Source: an uncultured Acetobacterium sp. (GTDB taxonomy: Bacteria > Bacillota > Clostridia > Eubacteriales > Eubacteriaceae). From it: a stretch of 64,000 nucleotides of DNA. Position numbers and translations under genes: made by a program. Below the pieces are notes generated by a model, which made no database searches, was not told where the DNA came from, and saw only the letters and a list, made by a program, of their open reading frames with translations. The DNA is taken from contig NZ_OY760905.1 in assembly GCF_963664135.1 (NCBI RefSeq), positions 1,550,001-1,614,000 on the forward strand, read 5' to 3'. Shown piece by piece: positions 21,710 through 36,359 of the stretch (position 1 is its first letter; each line of letters begins with the position of its first letter).

Positions 21710-22093
21710 ATGTATATCACACTATTTAAATCAAAACTCCATCGGGCCACCGTCACCGAAGCCGATCTCAATTATGTGGGGAGCATCACCATTGATCAGG
21801 ATTTATTGAAACAAGCCGATATTCTTCCCGGTGAGAAGGTTCAGGTGGTGGATGTCAATAATGGCCAGCGTTTTGAAACCTACACCATTGTCGGCGAACG
21901 GGGCAGCGGGATTGTCTGCGTGAACGGCGCCGCTGCCAGACTGGTGCAAAAAGGTGATAAGGTGATCATTATTGCCTATGCCATGATGGACCGAAATGAA
22001 GCTCTGAACTTTAAACCCCGGGTGCTGATCCTTAACGATGACAATGGGATTCTGGAAATCAAAGATCATGAGGTTCACGGTCATATTCAGTAA
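21710..22093 (+). CDS. panD: Aspartate 1-decarboxylase
   Basis: A 127-residue pyruvoyl enzyme making beta-alanine from aspartate. The self-cleavage site Gly24-Ser25 is visible in YVGSITID, with Lys9 (SKLH), Arg54-region residues and NGAAARLVQ that form the active site. AGAGGT precedes the ATG. Last gene of the pan operon, so the operon supplies both halves of pantothenate: pantoate and beta-alanine. Confidence 0.97.
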
Positions 22094-22141
22094 GCGGATT
22101 CGCTAACTGAAAAATCCCCTGCAAAGTCAACTCAATTTTTT

Positions 22142-22200
22142 AAGGCTGTTTATCTTTCAGTTATTTTATTAATACTGAAAGATAAACAGCCTTATTTTTT
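22142..22200 (+). terminator. Strong terminator of the pan operon
   Basis: A perfect 20-bp stem (22142-22161 with 22174-22193), 12-base loop, followed by TATTTTTT. In the opposite direction no T run follows, so it mainly ends panD transcription. Confidence 0.9.
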
Positions 22201-22224
22201 GTTTTTTATTGAATTCACTTCTAG

Positions 22225-23628
22225 CTATCTCATTAAATGGATAGCATGACCATTCACCGCATGGGCGGCTTCCAGCAGGGATTCCCCAACGGTGGGGTGA
22301 GCATGGATGGTGGTGATCAGTTCTTCCACTGTTACCTCCAACCGGATCGCCAGAGCCCCTTCGACGATCAGATCCGTTGCTCGTGGACCGGCCATGTGCA
22401 GGCCCAGTATTTCTCCGGTAACTGCATCGGCAATATATTTGACCACACCGCTTGTTTCTCCCATAATCATGGCTTTGCCATTGGCGGCCATAGGAAAACT
22501 CCCGACTTTCACGTCATATCCAAGGTCCCTTGCCTGAGCCTCGGTTAACCCGACACTGGCCAGTTCGGGTTTGGTATAGACACAATAGGGGATGGTTTTA
22601 AAATCAATTTTTGATTTTATTCTCATGATGGTCTCAACTGCAACAATCCCTTCGGCTGACGCCACATGGGCAAGCATTACGCCACCATTGCAATCACCCA
22701 CCGCATAAATATTAGGCTTATTCGTCTGCATTTTTTGATTGACTTTAATGGCGCCTCTTTCCGTTTCAATTCCTGCCTTTTCAAGTTCCAGAGTATCCAG
22801 TTCCGGTTTTCGGCCAATTGAAAGCAACACTTTTTGAGCTGCAACAATCATTTCCCCTGACTTGGAACTTGTCTTCACCGCTATCCCTTCAGTCGTTTGC
22901 TGAATTGATTCAACTTTTGTGCTGGTGAAAATTTCCACTCCATCTTTAATCATTTTTTCTTTAAGTGGTTTGACAATAGCCTTATCCATATTGGCAATAA
23001 TTTCGGGTAACATTTCAATGATGGTTACCTTACAGCCAAAGGCATTGTAGATACTGGCAAATTCACACCCGATTACACCGCCGCCAATGATGCATAAACT
23101 CTCTGGAACAGCTTCTAATGACAGCGCTGTTTCACTGGTGATCACATTGGGAAGTTCAGTTCCCGGGATAGGTGGAATAACCGGTTTTGAACCGGTTGCA
23201 ATAATAGCAAAATCAAAATCGATGACCGTTACTTCTTTACTTGAATTACTTTCATTATTAACAAACACTTTAATTTGATGATCATTGAGAAAAACACCGC
23301 TGCCTATAATTTTAGTAACAGTATTATTCTTCAATAATCCATTAACACCGCCAACTAAATTTTTGATGATTTTCGTCTTTCGTTGCTGCAGTTTTTGCCA
23401 GTCCGTCTCAAAACCTAAAACATTGATTCCCAATTCTTTGGCATCATTTTTTAGCACGTCAATCAGTTCGGTGGTATGTAAAAGCACTTTCGTTGGTATA
23501 CAGCCGACATTGAGGCAGGTTCCGCCTAAATACTTATTTTCAACCAGGGTCACCTCAGCGCCTAACTGAGCTGCCCGGATGGCTGCTACGTAGCCTCCCG
23601 GACCGCCTCCTAATATTACAATTTTCAT
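22225..23628 (-). CDS. lpdA: Dihydrolipoyl dehydrogenase (E3) of the acetoin dehydrogenase complex
   Basis: A 467-residue flavoprotein that reoxidises dihydrolipoyl groups with NAD+. FAD motif GGGPGGYVAA, redox-active Cys38 and Cys43 in GGTCLNVGCIPTK, NAD motif IGGGVIGCEFASI, and the C-terminal active-site base in HAHPTVGE. Start at 23628 follows GGAGGGGG; the open frame extends to 23718 without signal and would overlap acoC. It is the last gene of the aco operon, 13 bases after acoC, so it most likely belongs to that complex (AcoL role). Confidence 0.95.
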   Translation of the reverse strand: MKIVILGGGPGGYVAAIRAAQLGAEVTLVENKYLGGTCLNVGCIPTKVLLHTTELIDVLKNDAKELGINVLGFETDWQKLQQRKTKIIKNLVGGVNGLLKNNTVTKIIGSGVFLNDHQIKVFVNNESNSSKEVTVIDFDFAIIATGSKPVIPPIPGTELPNVITSETALSLEAVPESLCIIGGGVIGCEFASIYNAFGCKVTIIEMLPEIIANMDKAIVKPLKEKMIKDGVEIFTSTKVESIQQTTEGIAVKTSSKSGEMIVAAQKVLLSIGRKPELDTLELEKAGIETERGAIKVNQKMQTNKPNIYAVGDCNGGVMLAHVASAEGIVAVETIMRIKSKIDFKTIPYCVYTKPELASVGLTEAQARDLGYDVKVGSFPMAANGKAMIMGETSGVVKYIADAVTGEILGLHMAGPRATDLIVEGALAIRLEVTVEELITTIHAHPTVGESLLEAAHAVNGHAIHLMR

Positions 23629-23641
23629 ATTTCCCCCTCCA

Positions 23642-24961
23642 TTACAACAGTAATAATCCGGGTTTTTCAATGACTTCTTTGAGTCGGGCAACAAACTGTG
23701 CGGCAACCGAGCCATCAACCGCCCGATGATCCGCGGTGAGACTTAAATTCATCATTGGTTTAATGACCACCTGTCCAGCAATTGCCATGGGTGTATCCAT
23801 AATGGTGTTGATCCCTAAAATGGCAACCTCTGGCTGATTGATTATCGGAGTGAAGGATTCCATGCCAAACATCCCAATATTGGTAAGGGTGAAGGTTCCC
23901 CCGGTAATTTCATCAGCTTCCAGCTCATTGCTTCTGGCTTTTTCTGCCAGCGCCTTGATCTCATTGGAAATTTCTCCCAGATCTTTTTTATTGGCATATT
24001 TAACTACAGGGACAATCAGACCGTCTGGAAGGGCAACCGCTACGCCGATATTTACATAATTCCGGGTGATAATATTCGTTCCTTCAATGGAACAGTTGAG
24101 CAGCGGAAACTCCAGCAAAACCCGAGACAGGATCTTCACCAAAATATCAGTATAAGTTATTTTAGCGGTGCTTTTTAATTCTTCTCGTAACAGCTTCATG
24201 GCAGTGGTATCCACCCGCTGGTTATAATTAACAGTAGCGGATGTCTCCTGGCTGGCCGACATCCGGCTGGCGATAATTTTCCGCATGGCGGACATCGGTT
24301 TGGTGAACTCCTGGGGATCAGCAAATTTATGAAGCTCGGACTCGTGTTTGAAACGAAGCACATCATCCTTCATGATCCTGCCGGCCTTGTGAATATGACT
24401 CGGATCAACCCCCAGGCCTTCAGCAATCACTGCCGCAGTTGGCGATATTTTGGGCTGAGCCGTTTTTGCTCTCTCGGCAAATTCACTGACGTCCTTTTCG
24501 GTAATCGCACCTTGTGGCCCAGTCCCTGGTACCAGTGAAATATCAATCTTCAGATCAGCGGCTATTTTTTTGGTTCGGGCAGAGGCCTTTACTCTTCCGC
24601 CAGCTGCTGGCTGCGAGGCTGCTTCCGTGGCTTTAGACGGAGCAACTGCAGCCACCTTTTCTGCCTGGACTGCTGGACTTTCGACCGCTTTTTCGGCCTC
24701 CGCTAACAGCGCCGAGATATCTTCATCGGCCTTGCCAAGGATGGCTATGGGTTTTAAAACCGCTACTGTTCCCTCACTGACGAGTATCTTTCTGATGATC
24801 CCTTCTCCGGGAGATTCAAATTCCTTGGTTATTTTATCCGTTTCCACATCAAAGATGATTTCACCCATCTCAACACTATCGCCTTCCGACTTACGCCAGT
24901 TGGCAATATTTCCCTCGGTCATCGTCAACCCGAGTTTAGGCATTACTAAAAATTTTGCCAT
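23642..24961 (-). CDS. acoC: Acetoin dehydrogenase E2 (dihydrolipoamide acetyltransferase)
   Basis: A 439-residue E2. One lipoyl domain (1-80) has lipoyl Lys43 in VETDKIT. An Ala/Pro-rich linker follows, then a first peripheral-subunit-binding domain (124-161, ending GAITEKDV). A second such domain occupies 171-204 (SPTAAVIAEGLGVD, then IMKDDVLRF). The catalytic domain ends with the active His about 412 in TADHRAVDG. It moves the acetyl group from E1 to CoA. One lipoyl but two E3/E1-binding domains is unusual. AAGGAGG sets the start. Confidence 0.93.
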   Translation of the reverse strand: MAKFLVMPKLGLTMTEGNIANWRKSEGDSVEMGEIIFDVETDKITKEFESPGEGIIRKILVSEGTVAVLKPIAILGKADEDISALLAEAEKAVESPAVQAEKVAAVAPSKATEAASQPAAGGRVKASARTKKIAADLKIDISLVPGTGPQGAITEKDVSEFAERAKTAQPKISPTAAVIAEGLGVDPSHIHKAGRIMKDDVLRFKHESELHKFADPQEFTKPMSAMRKIIASRMSASQETSATVNYNQRVDTTAMKLLREELKSTAKITYTDILVKILSRVLLEFPLLNCSIEGTNIITRNYVNIGVAVALPDGLIVPVVKYANKKDLGEISNEIKALAEKARSNELEADEITGGTFTLTNIGMFGMESFTPIINQPEVAILGINTIMDTPMAIAGQVVIKPMMNLSLTADHRAVDGSVAAQFVARLKEVIEKPGLLLL

Positions 24962-24980
24962 TGTTCAATCCTCCTTTGTT

Positions 24981-25976
24981 CTAAACTTTAAAGAAGCCAT
25001 GCTGCTGTCCTACTTCAATGGCCTTTTTCACCTCTACATGCCAGGGTCCTTTTCTGCTGATTTTAAAGGTGAATGTCTGATCCGCATTGAATTCGATTTC
25101 CCGTTCACCATCCAAGGCAATGGTCCCTCGACAATTGGTGGTAAATTCATATTTTTCATCAAAATTTAAAATCGTTGGCTGATTTGTGCCGATTGGCAAG
25201 ACAATTCCCGCCGCCATCGGAATGCGTATTTTGGGCGCATTTTTATCAATGCTCACATAAGCACCAAAATCGTCCGCTTCGGTAATAATAATCTTACCGC
25301 CCACCACTGAAGAAAAACCGATGGAAGCCGGGTGGCTTCTGGCGACGAATATTTTTTCGATATCATCAATTTTCCAAATGGCCCGGGATCCCACAAACAC
25401 ATCTCTTGAAATCACCGCATCAATCAGCGCAATGTCCTTTAACTGTCCTTGATAATATATTTCAATAATCTTATCTTTTTTCGAATAGATTTTTTTGTCA
25501 AATTTATTCGAAGCTACCACCGCAGCGGCAATGCCCGCAATGGTCCCTTCAATCATATCCGGATAGACATTGTTGGTTCCCGTCGAAATAGAAATAAGGG
25601 CGGTGTCTCGCAGTTCTTTGGCCACTGCCCGATTGGTTCCATCGCCGCCCAATGTCACAATGCATCCCACTTTTTTTTCAATCATCATTTTAACCGCTTT
25701 ATAGGTGTCTTCGACGGTATCCTCTTTATAAAAATCGAACACTTCAATGTCGCACCGTAGCTCTCTGGTGGTTTTAAGTTTATCCGCAACCCGGTAACCC
25801 ATATTGTAAGGATCCGGCATCATATAAATCTTTTCCACCCCATTTTGTTGTGCACCAAGAATGATTCGCTCGACAATATTTATTTTCTCATTATTATCAA
25901 TTACCGTCGCATGGGAAACCAGTCTTCGAATATCCTTTCCTGAAGCAGGGTTGGCAATTATTCCAATTGAATTCAT
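24981..25976 (-). CDS. acoX: Acetoin catabolism protein AcoX (ATP-NAD kinase-like)
   Basis: A 331-residue protein related to NAD kinases and AcoX of acetoin operons. It has GIIANPASGKDIRRLV at the N-terminus, the kinase signature GGDGTNRAVAKE, and STGTNNVYP. The true activity of AcoX is not established and the enzyme is not needed for the E1-E2-E3 reaction in vitro; NAD or metabolite phosphorylation is inferred from the fold. It lies between acoB and acoC, as in other aco operons. AGGTGGTGG precedes the ATG. Confidence 0.88.
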   Translation of the reverse strand: MNSIGIIANPASGKDIRRLVSHATVIDNNEKINIVERIILGAQQNGVEKIYMMPDPYNMGYRVADKLKTTRELRCDIEVFDFYKEDTVEDTYKAVKMMIEKKVGCIVTLGGDGTNRAVAKELRDTALISISTGTNNVYPDMIEGTIAGIAAAVVASNKFDKKIYSKKDKIIEIYYQGQLKDIALIDAVISRDVFVGSRAIWKIDDIEKIFVARSHPASIGFSSVVGGKIIITEADDFGAYVSIDKNAPKIRIPMAAGIVLPIGTNQPTILNFDEKYEFTTNCRGTIALDGEREIEFNADQTFTFKISRKGPWHVEVKKAIEVGQQHGFFKV

Positions 25977-26098
25977 AAGTCCACCACCTTTTCTACTCTA
26001 AAAAAGTTCTGGAAATAATATCATCGTTTTTAAACTCCATTATTTCCAAAACCATGTCCTTTTATCTCACTGATCGTTATTCATTATTCGATTATTCA
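25977..26098 (-). other. acoB-acoX gap with dyad and 20-codon ORF
   Basis: The only long gap inside the operon (122 bases). It holds GGAAATAAT...ATTATTTCC, a 9-bp inverted repeat followed by CTTTTTT, and a 20-codon ORF (ATG at 26055, stop 25993-25995) with AAAAGG just before it. It could be a partial terminator, an RNA processing site or a micro-protein; evidence is thin. Confidence 0.3.
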
Positions 26099-27070
26099 TT
26101 AAAATAATGATTTAACTGCCTGAACTACATCGACTGCATTCGGCAATACATATTCTTCCAGAATGCCACTAAATGGGATTGGGGTATTGAGTGCACAAAC
26201 TCGTTTGATGGGTGCATCACATTCGTAGAAACATTCATCAGCAATGATTGCTGCCACTTCACCGGCATAACTGCCTCTTTTTGCTTCTTCGGAGACGATA
26301 ACCACCTTATGGGTTTTCTTGACTGATTCAAAAATAGCTTCTTTATCCAACGGATAAAGTGATCTTAAATCAATCACTTCCACATCAATACCGTCTTTTT
26401 CCAGAATTTCCGCTGCTTTAAGGGCATCATAAACCTGTTTTCCATAAGTAATGATGGTCACATCATTGCCCTCTTTTTTAATATTGGCTTTGCCAAAGGG
26501 AATCGGTTTAACCTCATCTTCGACCTGTCCCGGCATTGCATACAGGGTTTTGTTTTCCAGATAGATAACCGGATTATCGTCATCAATAGCCGTGAGCATC
26601 AAGCCGATAGCATCCTGTGGATTTGACGGATAAACAACCTTGAGGCCCGGCACATGGGTAAACCAGGCTTCCAGGGATTGGGAATGCTGGGCAGCTGCTG
26701 CGACGCCACCGCCGGAAGGTAAACGAACGACCATCGGAAGTTTTAGTTTGCCGCCGAACATGTACCGCATTTTAGCGGCCTGATTGACTAACTGATCCAT
26801 CCCAACGGTTGAAAAATCGACAAACATCAGCTCTGGTATCGGTCGTAATCCGACGGCTGCCGCACCAACGGCGGCTCCGATGATTGCACCTTCTGAAATT
26901 GGGGTATCGCGTACTCTTTTTTCGCCAAACTCTTCAACGAGTCCTGAGGTTACCCCAAAACAACCGCCGAAAATCCCAACATCTTCGCCAAAAATGAATA
27001 CATCAGGGTTTTCTAACATTTTTATACGCATGCCTTCTTTGATTCCTTGACCGTAAGTAAGCTCTCTCAT
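26099..27070 (-). CDS. acoB: Acetoin dehydrogenase E1 beta subunit
   Basis: A 323-residue transketolase-type subunit pairing with AcoA to bind thiamine diphosphate. Typical E1 beta segments: the thiamine-activating Glu region (FGEDVGIFGG), RVRDTPISEGAIIGAAVGAA, HSQSLEAWFTHVPGL, and VIVSEEAKRGSYAGEVAA. Its ATG overlaps the acoA stop (ATGA), coupling synthesis of the two subunits in equal amounts. Confidence 0.95.
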   Translation of the reverse strand: MRELTYGQGIKEGMRIKMLENPDVFIFGEDVGIFGGCFGVTSGLVEEFGEKRVRDTPISEGAIIGAAVGAAAVGLRPIPELMFVDFSTVGMDQLVNQAAKMRYMFGGKLKLPMVVRLPSGGGVAAAAQHSQSLEAWFTHVPGLKVVYPSNPQDAIGLMLTAIDDDNPVIYLENKTLYAMPGQVEDEVKPIPFGKANIKKEGNDVTIITYGKQVYDALKAAEILEKDGIDVEVIDLRSLYPLDKEAIFESVKKTHKVVIVSEEAKRGSYAGEVAAIIADECFYECDAPIKRVCALNTPIPFSGILEEYVLPNAVDVVQAVKSLF

Positions 27071-28053
27071 CTTGATCGTCCCTCCTCTACTATATCGGTA
27101 TAGACATCTTCAACCGCGGATGATACATCTGGGAATTTACTTGCCAGTGCGAAATCAACAGCTTCTTCAACCATTGCATCAATTTTCTCATTGAGTTTAT
27201 CCATTTCTTGTTGCGTCATGATATTATGTTCAAGGATGTACTTTTCAGCTCTGGGAATCGGATCTTTTTTCTTCCATTGTTCCAGTTCACCTTCTGGTCG
27301 GTAAACCGTTGGATCCCCCTCAAAATGACCGCGCCAGCGGTAGGTTTTACATTCGATCAGCGTTGGTCCCTGACCTTTACGGGCTCTGGCGACAGCTTCC
27401 TGAACGGCTTCAAAAACGGCAAACACATCATTACCATCGACGGTAATTCCAGGAATATTATAAGACACCGCCCGCTGGGAGATATCGGTGATATTCTGGT
27501 GTCTGGCCTGACTGACTGATATGCCATAGCCATTGTTTTCACAAATAAAAACAACTGGCAGTTTCCAGGTACTGGCAAGGTTCAAGCCTTCATGGAAGGT
27601 ACTTTGGTTGGTGGATGCATCACCAAAGAAGCAGGCACAAACCTGATCGGTGCCTTTGTATTGGATTCCCAGCCCGGCACCAGTAGCAATATTATGGCCG
27701 GCGCCAACAATCCCATTGGCCCCAAGGATTCCTTTGGTTGCATCGGCAATATGCATGGACCCGCCTTTACCTTTACAGTAGCCGGTTTCTTTACCAAACA
27801 GTTCGGCCATCATATATTTTAGATCGCCACCTTTGGCGATAATATGGCCATGGCCACGATGGGTACTGGTGATGTAGTCATCCTCACGTAAGCTTGCACA
27901 GGCTCCGGTTGCAACGGCTTCTTCACCGATATAAAGATGAACAAACCCGCCAACCTGACCTTCAGCAAAAAGATTCATGGCTCTATTCTCGAACTTCCTG
28001 ATTTTTACCATTTTTTCATACATTTCAATGATATTTTCGTTTGAAATTTTCAA
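27067..28053 (-). CDS. acoA: Acetoin dehydrogenase E1 alpha subunit
   Basis: A 328-residue thiamine-diphosphate enzyme subunit that cleaves acetoin into acetaldehyde and a hydroxyethyl group passed to E2. Signature: HRGHGH, then the Mg-thiamine motif starting GDASTNQSTFHEGLN and ending ENNGYG. A Ser/Tyr phosphorylation-type loop (YRWRGHFEGD) is present, as in E1 alpha proteins. The start is TTG at 28053, fixed by AAGGAGG seven bases upstream. Acetoin rather than pyruvate is inferred from acoX and gene order. Confidence 0.95.
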   Translation of the reverse strand: MKISNENIIEMYEKMVKIRKFENRAMNLFAEGQVGGFVHLYIGEEAVATGACASLREDDYITSTHRGHGHIIAKGGDLKYMMAELFGKETGYCKGKGGSMHIADATKGILGANGIVGAGHNIATGAGLGIQYKGTDQVCACFFGDASTNQSTFHEGLNLASTWKLPVVFICENNGYGISVSQARHQNITDISQRAVSYNIPGITVDGNDVFAVFEAVQEAVARARKGQGPTLIECKTYRWRGHFEGDPTVYRPEGELEQWKKKDPIPRAEKYILEHNIMTQQEMDKLNEKIDAMVEEAVDFALASKFPDVSSAVEDVYTDIVEEGRSR

Positions 28054-28109
28054 AATATTTCCTCCTTCTTGATCTGCTTCGTTTTTTATGGAACCCTACA
28101 CATTTGAGT

Positions 28110-28478
28110 TTATACACTCACCGTTACACATACAATGGCTGCCTCGATCGTATCATCGGTATCGCCAAAACCAGGAAAGAATAGACCAGCTGTTGTTAAG
28201 CCTCCTTTCTTTGCTTTGATGGTCACTTTTCCCACCGGAAAGAGTTTTTTCAATTCCTCGGTATTTAGTTCTTCTGGTCTGGAAACCCCGATGATTGCCT
28301 CAATCATCATTCTTTCATTGATATTCTCTTCGGTTAAACTATAGATTTCATTTAATCCGATCAGACAGCTCCTGGAAATTGCATCTTTGATTGCTTTTCC
28401 GGCCGCAACATTAACGTTCTGCCCATGAAAATCCATTCCCATTCCGAATTCAATAATGAACTTTTTTATAATGGTCAC
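28110..28478 (-). CDS. Lin0512 family protein
   Basis: A protein of about 120 residues matching the conserved hypothetical Lin0512 family (TIGR02058/PF09585): KKFIIEFGMGMDFHGQ at the N-terminus and a Gly-rich C-terminal half (GLTTAGLFFPGFGDTDDTIEAA). Function unknown. Start is awkward: the GTG at 28478 overlaps the ribosome site GGGAGG (28478-28483), while an ATT at 28470-28472 lies five bases after it and gives the usual short family N-terminus. Position between a DUF6506 gene and acoA in one operon suggests a role in acetoin or diol metabolism, possibly ring-shaped oligomer or cofactor handling, but that is guesswork. Confidence 0.75.
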   Translation of the reverse strand: MTIIKKFIIEFGMGMDFHGQNVNVAAGKAIKDAISRSCLIGLNEIYSLTEENINERMMIEAIIGVSRPEELNTEELKKLFPVGKVTIKAKKGGLTTAGLFFPGFGDTDDTIEAAIVCVTVSV

Positions 28479-28517
28479 CTCCCAACTTACAAAAGCTTTA
28501 TTGGTTTTATCTTTCCG

Positions 28518-28820
28518 CTAGAAAATTTCATCCCCACTCTTGTTTCCCAGTCCGGGATGAATATCAAACCTGACTACGCCAACCACCGCTTTACCTTTGA
28601 CAGCCTCACTGATCATAGCCGTTCCCCGGTGTCCAAATCCACCGCACAATTCAAAGGCTCCCACCCCTTCTGCGACAAGTTTCAGTACTGCATCCACGGC
28701 ACTTTCATAAGACGAAACCCCAACTGAAATCAGGGTAACCTGTTCAGTTTCAACCGTTGCACGGTGAATGGCCGGATCCGCATTTGGGGCAATAAAAATA
28801 AATGCTGCTTTTAATGCCAT
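28518..28820 (-). CDS. DUF6506-like protein, first gene of the aco operon
   Basis: A 100-residue alpha/beta protein: MALKAAFIFIAPNADP, then HRATVETE, and a Gly-rich middle (ELCGGFGHRGTAMISEA). It resembles the DUF6506 family; no activity is known. Its repeated GG and conserved His/Asp suggest a small ligand-binding fold. It is the first gene after the sigma-54 promoter, with AAGGAGG before the ATG, and would be made with the acetoin dehydrogenase. No membrane segment or signal peptide. Confidence 0.7.
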   Translation of the reverse strand: MALKAAFIFIAPNADPAIHRATVETEQVTLISVGVSSYESAVDAVLKLVAEGVGAFELCGGFGHRGTAMISEAVKGKAVVGVVRFDIHPGLGNKSGDEIF

Positions 28821-28883
28821 CTACAAACCTCCTTGTTTTGATGTTGTTTTTGCGCATTGCTTTGTGTCTTAATTATTAATAGA

Positions 28884-28899
28884 GCAATATTTGTGCCAA
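28884..28899 (-). promoter_or_regulatory. Sigma-54 (-24/-12) promoter of the aco operon
   Basis: Minus strand reads TTGGCAC-AAATA-TTGC, matching the consensus TGGCAC-N5-TTGC with correct spacing. Predicted transcript start is near 28872, about 50 bases before the first ATG. AcoR-type activation with sigma-54 is known for several acetoin operons. Confidence 0.88.
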
Positions 28900-28999
28900 A
28901 TTCTATATGTTTTTCTTTTTATTTAAACGTTTACTAAACTCCTGCAAATTTCTGTTTTTTGGTCCTGTTTTGGAACGGATACTCCAATCGGTGCTGCGA

Positions 29000-29061
29000 T
29001 TAATTCTCATTATGAGAATTAAAGTCTCATAATGAGAAAAGCAGTCTCAAAAATGAGACTG
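29000..29061. promoter_or_regulatory. Three phased enhancer palindromes (TCTCA-N3/4-TGAGA)
   Basis: Site 1 is a 23-bp perfect palindrome at 29000-29022 (centre 29011). Site 2, TCTCATAATGAGA, lies at 29025-29037 (centre 29031). Site 3, CAGTCTCA-AAAA-TGAGACTG, lies at 29042-29061 (centre 29051.5). The spacing of 20 bp is two helical turns, so all face the same side. Relative to the sigma-54 promoter they lie at about -139, -159 and -180, the usual distance for enhancer-binding proteins. Confidence 0.8.
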
Positions 29062-29073
29062 CTTTGGAGAACA

Positions 29074-29090
29074 GGCGGTCACGAGCCGCC
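29074..29090. repeat. GC-rich palindrome GGCGG..CCGCC
   Basis: GGCGG (29074-29078) and CCGCC (29086-29090) with a seven-base centre, one of several GC-rich dyads in intergenic DNA here. Confidence 0.45.
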
Positions 29091-29213
29091 ACTGCAAGAA
29101 ATGCCTATTGTTTGTGTTAATTAAACTTAGTTCGTAATACAGGTGGTTAATAGCCGATCTTACAAATCTACTTCTTGCTGCTTATATTCATTAATCTGGC
29201 TGGTCAGGTTTGT

Positions 29214-29236
29214 CGGGGTGAGCATTGCTCGCCCCG
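29214..29236. repeat. GC-rich palindrome after the ABC transporter operon
   Basis: CGGGGTGAGC (29214-29223), ATT, GCTCGCCCCG (29227-29236), ten pairs with one mismatch, six bases after the ATPase stop codon. No T run follows, so it is a weak terminator at best. Confidence 0.55.
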
Positions 29237-29241
29237 AGGTG

Positions 29242-29994
29242 TCACAATCGTTTTAAGATATCGCGGCGCAGCTGGCTTAACTCACTGGAGACCAAAGCCT
29301 CCCGAGTATCTTTATGCTTCTGGGGTACCTTGAACTCTTCCACAATGTGTGCCGGGGAGCCGTTGATGACGTAAATACGATCTGATAAAAAGATCGCTTC
29401 ATCAATATCATGGGTAATAAATAAAACCGATCCTTTGATTTTTTTTAGTATCTCCATCAGATACGCTTGCATTTTTAGTCGAGTGATGGCATCCAGTCCC
29501 CCGAAAGGCTCGTCCAACAGCATGATTTCTTTTGAAAACATATAGGTTCGCAGCAGCGAAACTCGCTGTTTCATGCCACCGGAAAGCTGATTGGGGTATT
29601 TATCGCCATCACTTTCCAATTCAAAAACTGGCAGCATCTCCCGTACTTTTTCGCGCGCTTCCTTTTTCTTGATTCCCCGAATTTCCAGTGGCAAGATACC
29701 ATTGTCGACAACGGTTCGCCAGGGTAATAACAGGTCTTTCTGATACATATAGCTGACAATTCCGGTTTTTCCGGTGACCTCGGCATCGTTCACAAAGATC
29801 TTCCCTGTTTCCGGCGTCAATAGTCCGGCAATAATATTAAAGAGGGTACTTTTTCCACAGCCGCTGGGGCCAAGAATGGTCACAAATTCGCCCTGATTCA
29901 GGTAAAGATCAATGCCTTCGATAATATTTTTGTGATTATATTCCTTGGTGACCTGTTCAACCTCGAGCACCGGTTTATTCTGGCAGGTATTCAT
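29242..29994 (-). CDS. ABC transporter ATP-binding protein (SsuB/TauB/ThiZ group)
   Basis: A 250-residue ATPase: Walker A GPSGCGKST, Q-loop in YMYQKDLLLPW, signature LSGGMKQRVSL, Walker B IMLLDEPFGGLD and switch His in FITHDIDEA. It powers the importer formed with the permease and lipoprotein encoded just upstream. I start it at 29994, with GAGG nine bases before the ATG and 20 bases overlap with the binding-protein gene; an earlier in-frame ATG (30015) has no ribosome site. Confidence 0.92.
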   Translation of the reverse strand: MNTCQNKPVLEVEQVTKEYNHKNIIEGIDLYLNQGEFVTILGPSGCGKSTLFNIIAGLLTPETGKIFVNDAEVTGKTGIVSYMYQKDLLLPWRTVVDNGILPLEIRGIKKKEAREKVREMLPVFELESDGDKYPNQLSGGMKQRVSLLRTYMFSKEIMLLDEPFGGLDAITRLKMQAYLMEILKKIKGSVLFITHDIDEAIFLSDRIYVINGSPAHIVEEFKVPQKHKDTREALVSSELSQLRRDILKRL

Positions 29995-30949
29995 TAGTAA
30001 ATGCCTCATCTGCATTCAATTGATTTTCCAGTAAACCATGATCATACATCCATTTTCCATAGTTTTCCCAGATACCAGACTTCATCACGCCCCATTTTGC
30101 GGCATCGCTCTGATATTCGCCGGACAAAAATTTTTGGGATGCCACAGCCAGATCACGGTCAATCTCCGGGTTTTCAACAAGCAGCAGATCGGCCGCTGCT
30201 TCGGGATTTTCAATGGCATATTGATAGCCTTTGGAGACTGCTCTTAAAAACTTTTTGGTCGTTTCCGGATTTTTTTCCAGATAATCTTCATTGGCAATAA
30301 TTACCGGGGTATAATAATCGAGATTTTTGTCCACATCCTGGAGACGGATAAAATTGATAGGATCGTTCTGCAGTTCTGCTGAAACCCCATCCCAGCCATA
30401 AAAGATCCAGGTGAAATCGACATGCTCCTTAACTGCGGTGAAAAAATCCAAGGCTCCCACATCAACAATTTCCAGTTGATTAAAATCGGCATTGTCGGCT
30501 TCCATTAATCCTTTCAGCGTTGCTACTTCCATCGGCGAACCCCAGCCCCCGTATTTTTTGCCTTCAAAATCTTTAGGAGCGATAATGTTGCGATCAGCCG
30601 GTGAGGCAAACCCGGAGGTGTTATGCTGAATAATGGCAGCGATGGCTTGAATTGGCAGTGGGTTGGCGGCAGTTCTTGCATAGGTGACCTGTTCCTGATA
30701 ACTGATCCCAAAGTCCCCCTGGCCAGCCGCGATAAGATCGGCACTGCCGCCCTCGGACGGTTGGATTATTTCCACACTCAAACCCTCTTCTTCAAAATAG
30801 CCTAACTGTTGGGCAACATAGAGTCCGGTATGATTGGTATTCGGCACCCAGTCCAAAACTACAGTGATTTTCTCATCTTCTTTCTGAGCGCACCCGGTTA
30901 ATGCAATCATCAGTATTCCGACTGCAATCAGCATTAATTTCTTTTTCAT
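29975..30949 (-). CDS. ABC transporter substrate-binding lipoprotein (NMT1/ThiY-like)
   Basis: A 324-residue lipoprotein. Residues 1-19 are a signal peptide with lipobox ALTGC. The mature part begins with VVLDWVPNTNHTGLYVAQ, typical of NMT1/THI5-like proteins that bind pyrimidine precursors of thiamine (ThiY) or related amines. Start at 30949 follows GGAGGAAGAGG and overlaps the permease stop by four bases (ATGA). No thiamine riboswitch is seen upstream. The operon sits between the sigma-54 activator and the aco operon; since E1 needs thiamine diphosphate, thiamine precursor uptake would fit, but the ligand is not proven. Confidence 0.88.
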   Translation of the reverse strand: MKKKLMLIAVGILMIALTGCAQKEDEKITVVLDWVPNTNHTGLYVAQQLGYFEEEGLSVEIIQPSEGGSADLIAAGQGDFGISYQEQVTYARTAANPLPIQAIAAIIQHNTSGFASPADRNIIAPKDFEGKKYGGWGSPMEVATLKGLMEADNADFNQLEIVDVGALDFFTAVKEHVDFTWIFYGWDGVSAELQNDPINFIRLQDVDKNLDYYTPVIIANEDYLEKNPETTKKFLRAVSKGYQYAIENPEAAADLLLVENPEIDRDLAVASQKFLSGEYQSDAAKWGVMKSGIWENYGKWMYDHGLLENQLNADEAFTNEYLPE

Positions 30950-31719
30950 TCCTCTTCCTCCTTTAATCTTTCCCAGGGCATCAGCGCCCGTTGAATCATG
31001 GCGATCCCGTAGAAAAGGCCAATCGATAAAATCACAATGACCAGAATTGAAGCAAATACCAGATCCAGGGCAAATGCATGCCTTGCTCTGAGCATGTAAA
31101 CGCCCAATCCGGCTTTTCCTCCCAGCCATTCTCCGATTACCGCACCCATAATGCTGTAGGTTGCCGCTATTTTTAAACCCGAAAAAAAATAGGGCAACGC
31201 GCTGGGGAACTTGATTTTAGTAAAAATCTGACGCTTGGACGCCCCCATTGACCGCGTCAGATTGATGAGTTCGCCATCCACACTTTGCAGTCCTTCAATG
31301 AGATTAACGGTAATCGGGAAAAAACAAACCAATACCACTACGAATATTTTTGGTGCAATCCCAAAACCAAACCACATCGCCAATAAAGGGGCAATGACAA
31401 TAATGGGCACCGTTTGCGACATGACCAGCACCGGATAGACGGCTTTTTTGACCATCGGGAATTGATCCATAGCAATGGCCATCAGCAGCGATAAAGTAGT
31501 GGCAACCGCGAGCCCGACCATGCCTTCGAAAAAAGTCACCCCGGTGTGCATCATAATCTCTGACCAGTTTTCAACCAGAGCCTTAATTATATCCGTTGGT
31601 GATGGCAATACATATCTTTCCACCCATCCCAGATCGACAACCAGCTGCCATAAAATGAGCATCGCTAGAATAAACACAATCGGTATTAATCGGTCAGCGA
31701 TATTTTGATACTTTCTCAT
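30946..31719 (-). CDS. ABC transporter permease (SsuC/TauC/ThiX type)
   Basis: A permease of 257 residues with six membrane helices and the cytosolic EAA-type loop GASKRQIFTKIKFPSALPY that contacts the ATPase. It forms the membrane channel of the NMT1-type importer. Start at 31719 is preferred, with AGGAG eight bases upstream; an in-frame ATG at 31740 has a weaker, distant AAGGA. First gene of the three-gene transporter operon. Confidence 0.9.
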   Translation of the reverse strand: MRKYQNIADRLIPIVFILAMLILWQLVVDLGWVERYVLPSPTDIIKALVENWSEIMMHTGVTFFEGMVGLAVATTLSLLMAIAMDQFPMVKKAVYPVLVMSQTVPIIVIAPLLAMWFGFGIAPKIFVVVLVCFFPITVNLIEGLQSVDGELINLTRSMGASKRQIFTKIKFPSALPYFFSGLKIAATYSIMGAVIGEWLGGKAGLGVYMLRARHAFALDLVFASILVIVILSIGLFYGIAMIQRALMPWERLKEEEE

Positions 31720-31806
31720 TAATTGTGCTCCTGCTTTCATTTCTTCTTTATTTTCCTTTTCTTCTTGCCAATCTATATTCTAGCATATTTCATGCCAAAC
31801 ATGTTT

Positions 31807-31842
31807 CTAAAAAAATCTGCAACCATATCCAGTTGCAGATTT
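31807..31842 (-). terminator. Intrinsic terminator of the sigma-54 activator gene
   Basis: AAATCTGCAAC/GTTGCAGATTT (31813-31823 with 31832-31842), followed on the minus strand by TTTT. It separates the activator from the ABC operon. Confidence 0.82.
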
Positions 31843-31855
31843 ATAATTAAAAACT

Positions 31856-33247
31856 TTATGCGCCGGTGACATGAATATCATAGGATTTGATTTTTCGATA
31901 AATCGTCGCTCGGCTGATGCTTAAATCCTCAGCCGCTTTTACCGCATTGCCGTTGTTTAAAAACAAAGCGTGTTCAATGCTGTTCTTCTCCAGATCTTTT
32001 AAGGTTTCGGCTTCGCTTTCGGACACTTGTGATTTTTCTTCTTTGTCTTTCAGCAAAACTTCTATATTTTCAATCTGATCTCCGGTTGACATATAGTAAC
32101 CGCGTTGGACAATATTTTTTAGTTCACGCACATTACCTTCCCATTCATATTCCAGTAGTCTATCCTCAAATTTTTTACTAAAGTATTTAGAAACCCCACT
32201 GTTCTCCTGGTTTAATTGCTGCAGAAAATATTTTCCCAATACCAGAATATCTTCCTGCCTTCTTTTTAAAGGCGGTAGCCTGAGATTTATAACATTGAGC
32301 CGAAAATAAAGATCCTGCCGGAAAGCCTCTTTGGACATCTCATTTAAAAGATTTCGATTAGTTGCCGCGATAATTCGAACGTCCAATTCCCGTTCATAAT
32401 TCCCACCAATCCGCATCACCTTGTTTTCATCCAACACCCGTAAAAGTTTGGGTTGCATCTCCAGCGGAATCTCACCGATTTCATCAAGAAATAAGGTGCC
32501 GCCATTGGCCAGCTCAAATTTTCCCGGCATGCCACCCTTGATAGCGCCGGTAAATGAACCGGTTTCATATCCAAAAAACTCGCTCTCCACCAGCTCCTTG
32601 GGAATGGCTGCGCAATTAATGGCAATAAAGGGACCGTTTCGGCGCTGGCTTTCATTATGAATCGATTGAGCGAAAAGTTCTTTGCCAGTACCGCTTTCCC
32701 CTTCAATGAGTACCGAACAATGGGTTTTAGCAATTCTTTTGGCGGTGGTAATCAGCTCCATCATGGTTTTGTTATTGGTTATGATCTTCTCAAAGGTATA
32801 ATTTGCCCGAAAACCGGCCAACTTATTGATTTCTTTACGGACCTGTTTGGACTCCCGAATGACCAATACCGCTCCCATTACCTTGTTGTTAAAAACAACT
32901 GGGGTAATATCCAGAAAACAGTCAATTTTTTTATGCCCAATAAAAAGCGTAATATCAGAGTAGCTGAATTTTCGTTTATTAATAAGAATATTGTTGACAA
33001 TATCGATATCTTTTAAGACCACATTCAGATCCATCTTGAAAATATCATCATCACACATTTGAAAAAGTTCTGAAATTTTATTATTGATTTTTTTAATTTT
33101 CAGATCTGTATCAATGATCATCAGACCATTGAGGATTGAATCCAGAGCCACATCCATTAATCTGTAGGAGTCAATGATTTCATATCGCATTTCCTGGGTC
33201 AGTTCGTCTCCATTTTTAAATTTTTCCATCAGCGTCCTTGGTTCCAT
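31856..33247 (-). CDS. Sigma-54-dependent transcriptional activator (PAS / AAA+ / Fis HTH)
   Basis: A 463-residue enhancer-binding protein. An N-terminal PAS sensor (about 25-130) is followed by an AAA+ domain with Walker A GESGTGKE (about 182-189), the sigma-54 contact loop GSFTGA (about 229), Walker [11 protein letters not shown] and R-finger region, then a C-terminal Fis-type helix-turn-helix ([22 protein letters not shown]). It most likely activates the aco operon from the palindromes at 29000-29061, as AcoR does elsewhere, although AcoR usually has a GAF sensor. Start at 33247 is set by GGAGGT; the TTG at 33262 includes that site. Confidence 0.9.
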
Positions 33248-33321
33248 GAACTTTACCTCCAAATTAATAATTTATTCATACAATTAGGAACGTCGTTTCG
33301 CTTCGCTGTCTGCTTTGAAAT

Positions 33322-34848
33322 TTATCTGAACTCACCAATTATTTTTTTCATCTCTGGACTTAAGGCCACCATCAGCTCCCCATTATAAGATCCCGTTGGC
33401 AACATGTCGGTCCGGCCATTGAAAGTCTGCTGAGCTGCCACCGAGTAAGACCGGGCAATACTGGCAAATGATCCCTCTTTCACCGTGGGACTAATATTTT
33501 TAGCGACAATTGAGATGGTATTATCACTGTTTTTGAGGATTTCAAAGGTTCGAAAATTCTGCGGAAAATCCCGGAGTGATGCTGCTTCAACCACCCAGAA
33601 ACCACGTTCCGGCTGAGTCGGGTCCGGTGATTTCAGGGGTGTTACCGTATTACGGTGGCGATGTCCGGCAACCCATAAGATCAAGTTGGGATAGGAGTGA
33701 AGTTTTTCGATAATTTCCGGTTCCGATATCTGAGAAATGGTGCTCCAGGACATAAAGGGTTTTGTGAGTGGTTCCAGATATTCCACCCCGATGGGGATAT
33801 GGGCGGCAATAATCATCAATTTTCCCTCTTCCTGGCCCTTATCCAGTTCATTGACCAACCAATCAAAGCGCAACCGATCCAATGAGCCATGAGCATAGCC
33901 ATTAACATTGGGATCATCATCCGGTTGGGTATTATCAAGCACAATAACCTTTAGGGGGACACCTTCCTTTGGTTCAAAGGCGTAGCAGGCAAAACCGCTC
34001 TCCAGATGAGTCGCTGTAAATCCGTGCCCAATCGGCTTGGTACTGGTCTTGAAAAATTCCTTCATCCAGTCTGCCCGAAACAAAAACCGTCGGCTGGGAT
34101 CATCTGAAACGACTTTTGGTTTTTTATCGGACCAGATGTGATCATGATTGCCCATGACCTGATACCAGGGAATTTGCTGATTCAGTCCCACTGCCATAAA
34201 ATCGTCATAAAATGCTTTCCGCGGTCCAATTCGGGGATTAATATTGACGCCGAAGTCCAGATTAATTTCGACCCCATCAAATATGTCGATGGACCATCGC
34301 AGTTCGTTATATTGGGCATTATTGGTATTATCGCCCATTGACAAACCAAAGTCCATGGGGTTCTCATGGTGAATGGCATTAATCGAATGGATCGCACCAT
34401 CCAAAACATGGGTTGTATAATGCATCATCTCAGAATAGACAGACACAATCCCGCCACCATACTTTGTATAAATCCCATGGGCCGGAAATTCTCCATCGGT
34501 GATATGAAGATCGGTCATGGCGAAAAAATGGAGCAATGTTTCTGTCTGATTGACTGCTGGACTTTGATAGTCTTCCGGCAGAAGCTCCACCCGCTTTTTC
34601 AATTCAGGATTACTGCTTGACGTCCATCCACCATAGCCTTCTTTGCCATACTTAATAATTTCAGTACTATCCACATTGGGTGACGTGGCAATTACCGGAT
34701 CCAGAAAGAAGGTATAGCATTGCTTTTCAGAATGGAAGTCCAGATCCAGGTCCGTCATCGGTATTGGAACTGGAACAATGAGCTGCTCGATTTCTTTAAT
34801 CTGCTTTGATAAGCGATTATTTGTTTTTTTTGAACGTTTATTTCCCAT
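33322..34848 (-). CDS. Metallophosphoesterase, TIGR03768-like
   Basis: A 508-residue calcineurin-type phosphoesterase. Metal ligands are in MTDLHITDGE, GDNTNNAQYNE, VMGNHDHIW, AAHIPIG and VAGHRHRNTV. The arrangement and length match the small TIGR03768 group of probable metallophosphoesterases; the substrate is unknown. There is no signal peptide, only a basic N-terminal stretch (NKRSKKTNNR), so it is cytosolic as it stands. GAGG precedes the ATG, and it starts ten bases after the amrS stop, forming a two-gene unit. Confidence 0.8.
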   Translation of the reverse strand: MGNKRSKKTNNRLSKQIKEIEQLIVPVPIPMTDLDLDFHSEKQCYTFFLDPVIATSPNVDSTEIIKYGKEGYGGWTSSSNPELKKRVELLPEDYQSPAVNQTETLLHFFAMTDLHITDGEFPAHGIYTKYGGGIVSVYSEMMHYTTHVLDGAIHSINAIHHENPMDFGLSMGDNTNNAQYNELRWSIDIFDGVEINLDFGVNINPRIGPRKAFYDDFMAVGLNQQIPWYQVMGNHDHIWSDKKPKVVSDDPSRRFLFRADWMKEFFKTSTKPIGHGFTATHLESGFACYAFEPKEGVPLKVIVLDNTQPDDDPNVNGYAHGSLDRLRFDWLVNELDKGQEEGKLMIIAAHIPIGVEYLEPLTKPFMSWSTISQISEPEIIEKLHSYPNLILWVAGHRHRNTVTPLKSPDPTQPERGFWVVEAASLRDFPQNFRTFEILKNSDNTISIVAKNISPTVKEGSFASIARSYSVAAQQTFNGRTDMLPTGSYNGELMVALSPEMKKIIGEFR

Positions 34849-34858
34849 TTATAGCGCC

Positions 34859-35689
34859 TCAACAATTTCCAGCATAGACAAATTCCAAGGACTCCCTGGC
34901 AATATCGGCAAGATGATAAACCTCATTAATCTCAGTGGCTTCCCGATCCCCCATTTCGTATCTCGGGAAAAACCGTGACAAATGCAGGGGAATGGTCTTG
35001 TCGACAGAACCCAGCCATTGAGACAATGCCCGTATTTCCGCTTCACTGTCATTTTCGCCAGGTATAATTAATGTGGTTACTTCCACATGACTATACTCAC
35101 TGGCAATTTTGATGGTTTGTTTCACCGTTTCCAGATCACCTTTTATTTTTTTATAAAACGCCTGGGTAAATGCTTTCAAGTCAATGTTCAAGGCATCAAT
35201 ATCCGGCAGGATCTCCCGAATCGGTTCTTCACAAAAGTTTCCGTTGGTAACCAGGACATTCTTCAAACCGTTTTTCTTGATCGCTTTGGCGCAGTCTCTG
35301 ACAAATTCATAGCCGACTAGCGGTTCATTGTAGGTATAGGCCAGACCGATATTCCCTTCATCGACCAATCTAATGGCGTTGCTTACTAGGCTTTCGGGGC
35401 TCATTCTGCGCCCATGAGCTTCTTCGATTCCGGCCATGGAAATTTCGTAGTTCTGACAAAAGGAACACCTTAAATTACAGCCGAAGCTCCCTACTGAAAG
35501 AATTTTAGTTCCCGGGAAAAAGCGACGCAATGGTTTTTTTTCGATGGGATCCAATGAAATGGCTGTTACGATTCCATAATTTAGCGCTTCAATCACATCT
35601 TTTTTGTTAATTCTGGCGCGACAAAATCCGATCTCATCCTGGTCTAATTTACAATGATGCGGACAGAGCTGACAAACTATTTTACTCAC
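34859..35689 (-). CDS. amrS: AmmeMemoRadiSam system radical SAM enzyme
   Basis: A 276-residue radical SAM protein. N-terminal zinc-type cysteines lie in CQLCPHHC; the SAM [4Fe-4S] site is CNLRCSFCQN (about 71-80). Further segments (YTYNEPLVGYEF, VTNGNF, LIIPGEND, PLHLSRFFPRYEM) match AmrS/PflA-like proteins. It lacks the long C-terminal tail of some homologues, ending at VYAGNC. AmrS normally occurs with AmrA and AmrB; neither is present here. I place the start at GTG 35689 with GGTGG upstream; the frame extends to 35770 without a signal. Confidence 0.85.
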   Translation of the reverse strand: MSKIVCQLCPHHCKLDQDEIGFCRARINKKDVIEALNYGIVTAISLDPIEKKPLRRFFPGTKILSVGSFGCNLRCSFCQNYEISMAGIEEAHGRRMSPESLVSNAIRLVDEGNIGLAYTYNEPLVGYEFVRDCAKAIKKNGLKNVLVTNGNFCEEPIREILPDIDALNIDLKAFTQAFYKKIKGDLETVKQTIKIASEYSHVEVTTLIIPGENDSEAEIRALSQWLGSVDKTIPLHLSRFFPRYEMGDREATEINEVYHLADIARESLEFVYAGNC

Positions 35690-35771
35690 AATTATTCCAC
35701 CTTTCGTTGATTTAACTGATTTTTTGCACAAGAAATCATCCTGTGTCAAGAAATGAACTTTCTGACGCAAC

Positions 35772-35810
35772 TAAAAAAGGAAAACCACCTGATGTCTTCC
35801 TTCTTTTTTA
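35772..35810 (-). terminator. Putative terminator of the nad-niaR operon
   Basis: AAGGAA/TTCCTT (35777-35782 with 35797-35802) flanked by A and T runs; on the minus strand TTTTTT follows. Short stem and 14-base loop. Confidence 0.5.
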
Positions 35811-35840
35811 TGCTATTCTTTTCATACCCAAATTTCTGAT

Positions 35841-36359
35841 TTAAAAATCACCCGGGGTGATTAAATATCCTTTTTCTTTTAAACGCTTTTCCACTGCTTG
35901 AAGAATGGCATCCGAAGTTGCTTCGACGGTATGATAATGATATTTGTCGGTGAGCTTCATCAGCGGGCTGGTCTGCTTTTCTTCTAACCCAGCAACAAAG
36001 GCATCCACGTCCGCTCTGGTGGCCAGAAACAGATCGACCTGGATCTTTCCGTAAAGATCATGAATGATGAACACATCCTTCACAAAACCACCGGCATCGA
36101 CGATGGTGTAAAGCTCATCCGCGATTTCTTCGTGAGCATGATAGACCTTGAAGACCTGCTCTTTTGGCGGCGGATCGATCAAAATATAGCCCTTATTGGT
36201 TGAGATAATATTGTAGTGCGCCGCTTTTAGGAGTGCAATATCCTGGACAATGCTCTGACGACTTACTTGAAAAATTTCTGACAGCGCCGTTCCCGAAACG
36301 GGTTCCCGGGAAGACCGCAGGGTTTTGACAATAGCATCTTGTCGCTTTTGTTTTTTCAT
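35841..36359 (-). CDS. niaR: Niacin-responsive repressor NiaR
   Basis: A 172-residue regulator with an N-terminal HTH_11 domain (GTALSEIFQVSRQSIVQDIA) and the C-terminal 3H domain. The His residues for metal and nicotinate binding are in KVYHAHEEIAD and DKYHYHTVEA. NiaR represses NAD synthesis and uptake genes when niacin is plentiful. It is the last gene after nadA-nadB-nadC, giving autoregulation of the operon. GGGAG precedes the ATG. Confidence 0.93.
   Translation of the reverse strand: MKKQKRQDAIVKTLRSSREPVSGTALSEIFQVSRQSIVQDIALLKAAHYNIISTNKGYILIDPPPKEQVFKVYHAHEEIADELYTIVDAGGFVKDVFIIHDLYGKIQVDLFLATRADVDAFVAGLEEKQTSPLMKLTDKYHYHTVEATSDAILQAVEKRLKEKGYLITPGDF

Follow-up and report, generated by a model that had tools for sequence, protein, structure and literature searches.

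Three TCTCA/TGAGA dyads upstream of a sigma-54 aco promoter in Acetobacterium as a candidate enhancer of an AcoR-family activator

What role do three short palindromes play upstream of an acetoin (aco) operon in an uncultured Acetobacterium sp.? The stretch of DNA analyzed here, referred to as the window, is 64,000 nucleotides long, and its features of interest are collected in Table 1. We conclude that the three dyads are very probably the upstream activating sequences (UAS), that is, the enhancer, through which the AcoR-family activator AcoR1 (gene at 31856-33262) acts on the sigma-54 promoter of the aco operon. The outermost dyad also lies within the stem of a hairpin that resembles an intrinsic terminator, and the reading of these palindromes as DNA sites was weighed against a role in RNA.

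Table 1. Features of the aco region, in window coordinates.
Feature	Sequence	Position	Strand	Form and centre	Evidence
aco operon: DUF6506, Lin0512-family, acoA, acoB, acoX-like, acoC, acoL		22225-28820	minus		ORFs, Pfam, NCBIfam
Sigma-54 (-24/-12) promoter of the aco operon	TTGGCACAAATATTGCT	28883-28899	minus		motif match and conservation
cre-like element, candidate CcpA-type site	TTTAGTAAACGTTTAAA	28922-28938	minus		conservation
Dyad 1, promoter-proximal, candidate UAS	TCTCATTATGAGA	29005-29017		N3 form, centre 29011	
Dyad 2, candidate UAS	TCTCATAATGAGA	29025-29037		N3 form, centre 29031	
Dyad 3, outermost, candidate UAS	TCTCAAAAATGAGA	29045-29058		N4 form, centre 29051.5	
Intrinsic-terminator-like hairpin, contains dyad 3	AAAGCAGUCUCA-UUUU-UGAGACUGCUUU then UCUC	29034-29065	minus		folding, scan, conservation
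ABC transporter operon: permease, NMT1/SsuA-type binding protein, ATPase		29242-31740	minus		ORFs, Pfam, NCBIfam
Second sigma-54-like promoter, ahead of the ABC operon and right after the activator gene	TTGGCATGAAATATGCT	31782-31798	minus		motif match
AcoR-family sigma-54 activator (AcoR1)		31856-33262 (TTG start) or 31856-33247 (ATG start)	minus		ORF, Pfam, alignment

The promoter TTGGCACAAATATTGCT has the invariant GG and GC of its class and is the sole perfect match to TTGGCAC-N5-TTGCT within the 64-kb window, confirming the -24/-12 promoter that a first-pass annotation of this DNA had claimed. The three dyads reported by the same annotation were recovered at their centres, with centre-to-centre steps of 20 and 20.5 bp, and they occur far above the expectation from dinucleotide shuffles: TCTCA-N3-TGAGA is observed twice in the window against 0.07 expected, and TCTCA-N4-TGAGA once against 0.03 expected. 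Sigma-54-dependent transcription starts about 12 bp past the GC of the -12 element. With the start placed by this textbook rule, the dyad centres lie near -139, -159 and -179, in agreement with the earlier placement at -139 to -180.

The genome, a single contig of 4,084,676 bases, contains nine exact dyads, six of the N3 form and three of the N4 form, compared with reversed-control counts of 0 and 2, respectively. Three of the nine make up the cluster in the window and one precedes a second aco operon. The remaining five all lie inside ORFs (threshold at least 80 codons), and a wider regulon served by other genomic dyads was rejected on this ground. When one mismatch was allowed in the N3 form, 89 matches were obtained genome-wide against 38 in the reversed control, so that loose matches carry little meaning.

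AcoR1 has the make-up of an enhancer-binding protein: a sigma-54 AAA+ domain (PF00158, 1.3e-70) with a GAFTGA-like loop that reads GSFTGA, and a Fis-type HTH (PF02954, 3.5e-9), which bears out its initial description as an AcoR-type activator. Its gene lies near acoABCL (acoL matches the dihydrolipoyl dehydrogenase family TIGR01350 above the family cut-off), but the ABC transporter operon sits between the activator gene and the aco operon. AcoR1 has no N-terminal GAF domain, a domain present in 7 of 9 aligned members. When AcoR1 was aligned with the corresponding open frame of A. bakii (653 aa), both ends matched and the GAF region was missing in frame, with the short N-terminal stretch of AcoR1 joining the linker ahead of the PAS-like part. 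The A. wieringae orthologue likewise aligns without the GAF region, and the short N-terminus is common to all six other type-1 orthologues inspected, the inspected set being that without G002. PAS matches are weak in AcoR1 (E 0.06, Pfam) and better in its kin. A study of DmpR describes a sensor-less form that makes tetramers with constitutive ATPase activity (PMC7264223). AcoR1 resembles that form in the deletion, here a natural one, of a sensor-type domain, and differs from it in that the PAS-like stretch is kept and the GAF domain lost. Because removal of the sensor is reported to give constitutive ATPase activity in DmpR, AcoR1 may by analogy be independent of acetoin, or it may answer to its PAS part.

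We assessed the conservation of the dyads among 19 genomes of the genus. A type-1 acoA, at 90% identity or more, was found in 11, of which 10 are collinear at this locus; the genomes compared include A. wieringae DSM 1911 (G015), A. dehalogenans DSM 11527 (G004), A. bakii DSM 8239 (G001) and the same-species Acetobacterium sp. bin S2.10 (G009). In all 10 collinear loci the dyad cluster is exactly 59 bp long, and its separation from TGGCA varies between 94 and 117 bp. Over these loci, 28 of the 30 half-site columns are invariant (9/10 in dyad 1, 9/10 in dyad 2 and 10/10 in dyad 3), as are the promoter columns TGGCA (5/5) and TTGC (4/4). Of the 66 columns that separate dyad 1 from the conserved element that follows, 8 are invariant, and the 120 columns upstream of the cluster, a region that aligns poorly, have none. 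Conserved dyads some 100-250 bp upstream of the promoter, at a distance that may vary, are the arrangement of UAS, and this is the arrangement found.

The variable distance also bears on a different reading, in which a regulator other than the activator, such as a repressor of either the aco or the ABC operon, uses the dyads as its operators. Perfect short palindromes would suit many dimeric regulators, and the cre-like site suggests that further regulators act at the aco promoter. A distance that varies by 23 bp is, however, unlike that of a promoter-blocking operator, and the dyads accompany acoR in several lineages and at a paralogous operon, changing with its HTH, as described below. We therefore consider operators of another regulator very unlikely.

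An activator orthologue was found in nine genomes, namely eight of the collinear ones and A. bakii. Absence of the palindromes where the activator is kept had been named at the outset as the outcome that would speak against a link between the two; the comparison showed the triple site in 8/8 collinear Acetobacterium operons with an activator orthologue in the genome. In G008 and G009, assemblies that are 83 and 81% complete, the cluster is kept and an activator orthologue was not recovered; two of the dyads in G008 are imperfect. A. bakii has the orthologue, and its locus is rearranged in the order acoR, dehydrogenase gene, aco, with degenerate dyads only. These degenerate dyads, together with sigma-54-like sequences, stand before both the dehydrogenase gene and aco, where the strict rule gives one dyad each. 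The intervening gene (L041 / L080) was judged by eye to be of the zinc-dependent dehydrogenase type, and it is possible that it encodes a butanediol dehydrogenase under the same activator.

To place the dyads in a wider setting, aco loci of other Clostridia were compared. One scan of named genomes returned 38 loci encoding AcoA relatives, 24 of which were inspected for their neighbours. In 14 of the 24, an intact or fragmented acoR immediately precedes the aco operon; in two it lies downstream, and in A. bakii and A. wieringae a gene or operon intervenes. In the remaining loci no acoR was seen within the stretch covered. The acoR-aco interval holds TCTCA/TGAGA dyads in Thermoanaerobacter, Caldanaerobacter and a Eubacteriaceae MAG; in UBA lineages the dyads in this interval are of the mixed TATCA/TGAGA kind. 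One locus (L101) has a single dyad of the TCTCA/TATCA kind, two (L138 and L137) have only one dyad by rule, and one in which acoR adjoins aco (L103) has no clear dyad in the acoR-aco interval.

A search of 391 genomes of the class detected AcoA in 13 at a threshold of E 1e-130, and a search of 398 genomes of the phylum detected it in 41 at E 1e-115. The phylum-level search contributed 28 new loci, of which 27 were examined and one (L192) was left out. No activator HTH was recognized upstream by pattern in 22 of these 27, and the dyad search was confined to the other five. Among those five, TCTCA/TGAGA occurs in L171 only; L174 and L175 contain TTTCA-type palindromes, as judged by eye, and L184 and L186, in which the HTH is present, have no dyads.

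Comparison of these sites with the recognition helices of the activators showed that the half-site letters follow the HTH class. Helices were assigned to an Ala type, S[RK]A[TS][IL]YRK, or a Ser type, [SG]KST[IL]YRK. In the 32 Ala-type rows, most of them close kin, with the class of some assigned from kin and all type-1 rows labelled SRAT, only 1 of 82 dyads has a TCCCA half, and that one lies outside the cluster of its locus. Some type-1 orthologues in fact read SKAT, and for G008 and G009 no activator was recovered; SRAT and SKAT both count as Ala type. The eight Ser-type rows come from Maledivibacter, a Bacillota MAG, Tissierella, and Clostridium and its kin. Dyads were called in seven of them, and 12/12 contain at least one TCCCA half; the eighth row, L143, has no dyad by rule. 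Three SKST loci carry mixed TCCCA/TCTCA dyads, and the Clostridium loci carry TCCCA/TGGGA. In a tree of 23 activators, a single change accounts for the TCCCA label (support 50/44). Many independent helix-linked changes of the half-site were accordingly rejected, since the tree allows a single one, and the joint change of helix and half-site may represent one event only. These data are evidence that site and protein changed together, Ala with TCTCA and Ser with TCCCA, and fall short of a proven code.

The second aco operon of the same genome provides a further comparison. A paralogue of the activator, AcoR2, is encoded in the open frame 2190573-2192624 and is 43% identical to AcoR1 over the aligned part; acoA2 follows at 2192846. 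Between them lie TCTCAAATGTGAGA, TCGCAATTTTGAGA and TCGCAAATATGAGA, then TTGGCAC-N5-TTGTT, so that this operon is preceded by one TCTCA/TGAGA and two TCGCA/TGAGA dyads. We also observed that the region 2190573-2193829 holds a full-length AcoR paralogue and that the first dyad overlaps the end of the AcoR2 open frame. Eleven loci of this type 2 were aligned and ten of them scored for dyads (G006 was aligned and left unscored): at least three dyads were present by rule in eight of the ten, two in one and one in another.

The equal steps on one face of the DNA proposed in the first-pass annotation, along which three dimers would stack, stood in part. Within the type-1 operon the spacing is invariant, 20 bp corresponding to about 1.9 helical turns, whereas the second operon has steps of 18 and 22 bp, and steps of 24-27 bp occur in Thermoanaerobacter, Caldanaerobacter, Tissierella and C. 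tyrobutyricum. Because helical phasing breaks down outside the type-1 operon, we rejected it as a strict rule for all loci.

The existence of AcoR2 also raises the question of which paralogue uses the sites in the window. AcoR2 retains the GAF domain that AcoR1 is missing, its own operon has similar dyads, and its helix reads SRAS against SRAT in AcoR1; on these grounds the sites might be used mainly by AcoR2, with the GAF-less AcoR1 as an accessory. Set against this, AcoR1 is the genetic neighbour of aco in all eight collinear genomes where it was found, and its SRAT helix is identical to that of the Thermoanaerobacter AcoR, which has TCTCA sites. We judge predominant use by AcoR2 to be unlikely, and AcoR1 would be the main user of the dyads; AcoR2, with its similar helix, may bind them as well.

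The rarity of the arrangement was quantified by a search for a tandem pair of exact dyads regardless of function. Four of the 391 class genomes and two of the 398 phylum genomes contain such a pair, the present genome being counted in both, and the reversed control gave 0. Within the genus they occur in 9 of 19 genomes, again with a reversed control of 0, and by coordinates all are at the type-1 aco locus. Three matches lie outside Acetobacterium (G172, G162 and G622). In G172 the tandem dyads stand behind a different activator, with the helix ISRATLYRK, and the -24/-12 promoter TTGGCATGATAGTTGC follows about 72 bp further on. In G162 (L147 / L196) they stand 60 bp before the sigma-54-like TTGGCATAAAAAATGC, and no activator gene was found in the 19.5 kb examined. 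In G622 they are 0.9 kb from an SKST-helix activator, and the nearest sigma-54-like site is more than 3 kb away. As support for an enhancer, the G162 and G622 sites are weak or contrary. That tandem dyads always mark an SRAT/SKAT activator was rejected, as this holds for G172 and fails for the other two. Two side observations were made at these loci: the genes downstream of the G162 site look, by eye, like lactate-racemase-maturation genes, and at the G172 locus (L150 / L197) two perfect dyads form the arms of a terminator-like hairpin, followed by a third dyad and a sigma-54-like promoter.

Folding of the minus-strand RNA from 29065 to 29038 yielded a 12-bp stem with a UUUU loop (-18.4 kcal/mol, z -7.5), the 3' arm of which runs into UUUUCUC. 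Intrinsic terminators consist of a GC-containing hairpin and a U-tract located behind a gene, and this hairpin, which contains dyad 3, is likely to be the terminator of the upstream ABC operon. It was listed by folding and by our custom scan; a stock terminator scan of the window did not list it. Its outer arms are conserved in 9/10 columns, and the single change (in G013) preserves a G-U pair. By alignment the hairpin is seen in 10/10 collinear loci. The custom scan lists 9/10, with G002 missing because its stem extends over the T-run and fails the tail filter. In G013 the stop codon of the ABC operon lies just before the hairpin, and G016 has an additional terminator-like hairpin upstream.

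Overlap of this kind recurs in other lineages. As raw counts without a shuffled control, which include the overlap expected by construction because dyads are inverted repeats, the dyads overlap a terminator-like hairpin in 9 of the 22 rows outside types 1 and 2, are accompanied by a separate hairpin in three, and have none in ten; on the same basis, the last dyad of 8/10 type-2 rows has one half-site within a strong terminator, and the first two dyads lie outside it. Two dyads, one per arm, are contained in the hairpin in L081, L084, L105, L110, L142 and G172 (L150); the T-run in L105 is weak.

These overlaps, and the stable hairpin with a U-tract formed by dyad 3, would also be expected if the dyads mattered only as RNA, as terminator hairpins of the ABC operon with no role as DNA sites. 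Dyads 1 and 2, however, fold weakly on their own (-7.8 and -3.3 kcal/mol); they can pair with each other when folded together, yet they are conserved at fixed spacing just as dyad 3 is. Furthermore, dyads persist beside a separate terminator in L093, L102 and L171, the first two type-2 dyads lie outside the terminator, and the letters of the half-site follow the HTH class. A function confined to RNA is thus highly improbable, and we retain the reading of the dyads as DNA sites of the activator. Because the outermost dyad lies in the terminator stem, one sequence would serve both as a DNA site and as an RNA hairpin.

Other elements of the region were characterized in the same way. The cre-like element TTTAGTAAACGTTTAAA lies between the enhancer and the promoter; 13 of its 14 core columns are invariant in the 10 collinear loci, and it agrees at 12/14 positions with a cre consensus. 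Control of aco by CcpA was reportedly described by Peng in 2020. The genome encodes one CcpA-like protein, which scores 324 bits against a family cut-off of 442, and TTTAGTAAACGTTTAAA is put forward as a candidate catabolite-repression site. At the other end of the ABC operon, a sequence of the form TGGCA[CT]-N5-[AT]TGCT, represented in the window by TTGGCATGAAATATGCT, follows shortly after acoR in 8/8 loci examined, and the sequence beyond it differs in G013, G006 and G002. No conserved TCTCA/TGAGA dyad was found near this promoter in the loci examined. An Rfam search over 22000-36000 returned no family that reached its gathering score.

Taken together, the fixed 59-bp cluster and its conservation, the recurrence of dyads at the paralogous aco operon and behind acoR in other Clostridia, and a half-site that follows the HTH class make the enhancer well supported and uphold the original proposal that the dyads are the upstream sites of the activator. 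Judged from these comparisons of sequence, AcoR control of the aco promoter is likewise well supported. In the mechanism we propose, activator dimers would occupy neighbouring dyads, contacting the TCTCA/TGAGA half-sites with their Fis-type HTH, and assemble into the active AAA+ form, presumably an oligomer. By looping, the assembled activator would then reach sigma-54 RNA polymerase at 28883-28899 and cause the aco promoter to open. Dyad 3 forms part of the stem of the hairpin that would terminate transcription of the ABC operon in vivo.

The analysis adds to the first-pass annotation the terminator overlap, an activator that has naturally lost its GAF domain, and a half-site that changes along with the recognition helix; the cre-like site also went unnoticed there. 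For the acetoin activators of acetogens and other Clostridia, the dyads provide a candidate recognition sequence that is both rare and conserved, and its joint change with the recognition helix is open to experiment. The findings also suggest that terminators in nature can house enhancers, and that an acetogen genus has an activator naturally devoid of GAF. A broader and tentative proposal, which we rate as possible and on balance doubtful, is that clostridial AcoR enhancers are repeatedly built from terminators, the same palindromes being docking sites for the activator in DNA and, in RNA, the stop signal of the upstream gene, often acoR. Activator bound there would switch on the aco promoter and, in addition, influence whether transcription terminates or reads through. 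If this were true, the activator could act as a roadblock or exert feedback on acoR or the transporter, and in Acetobacterium a terminator-built enhancer would be paired with an activator freed from its GAF sensor. A literature search joining UAS or enhancer-binding proteins with intrinsic or Rho-independent terminators gave no such report among the matches listed.

The AcoR/acoABCL systems of Bacillus, Pelobacter and Clostridium share with the window a common operon type, activator family, -24/-12 promoter and upstream palindromic site, and Cupriavidus also has an AcoR/acoABCL sigma-54 system. The window differs from known AcoR systems in its three separate 13-14-bp TCTCA/TGAGA dyads, in the ABC operon that separates the activator from its target, and in an activator without GAF. 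For B. subtilis, PMC10018347 describes the AcoR operator as a palindrome of about 30 bp.

A literature search combining Acetobacterium, acetoin and sigma54 found only PMC6615313 (Nie 2019). That study reports a distinct computed AcoR UAS motif before acoABCL, multiple UAS for 32 groups, and most UAS at 100-250 bp upstream. Its AcoR group is thus like the window in having a UAS motif before acoABCL, with multiple UAS reported, and its distribution is given as Clostridium only. The Clostridium loci of the present analysis have TCCCA/TGGGA where the window has TCTCA/TGAGA. The site of the window, which the first-pass annotation put forward as possibly new, may be a variant of the published AcoR motif or may coincide with it. 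For NifA/FhlA-type UAS, the same study gives TGT-N10-12-ACA. The wider form GTCTCA-N3-TGAGAC of several of our loci resembles this geometry, becoming TGT-N11-ACA when flanked by T and A. Unlike NifA/FhlA UAS, the dyads of the window read without the outer TGT/ACA and fall outside that class, and their conserved core is TCTCA/TGAGA.
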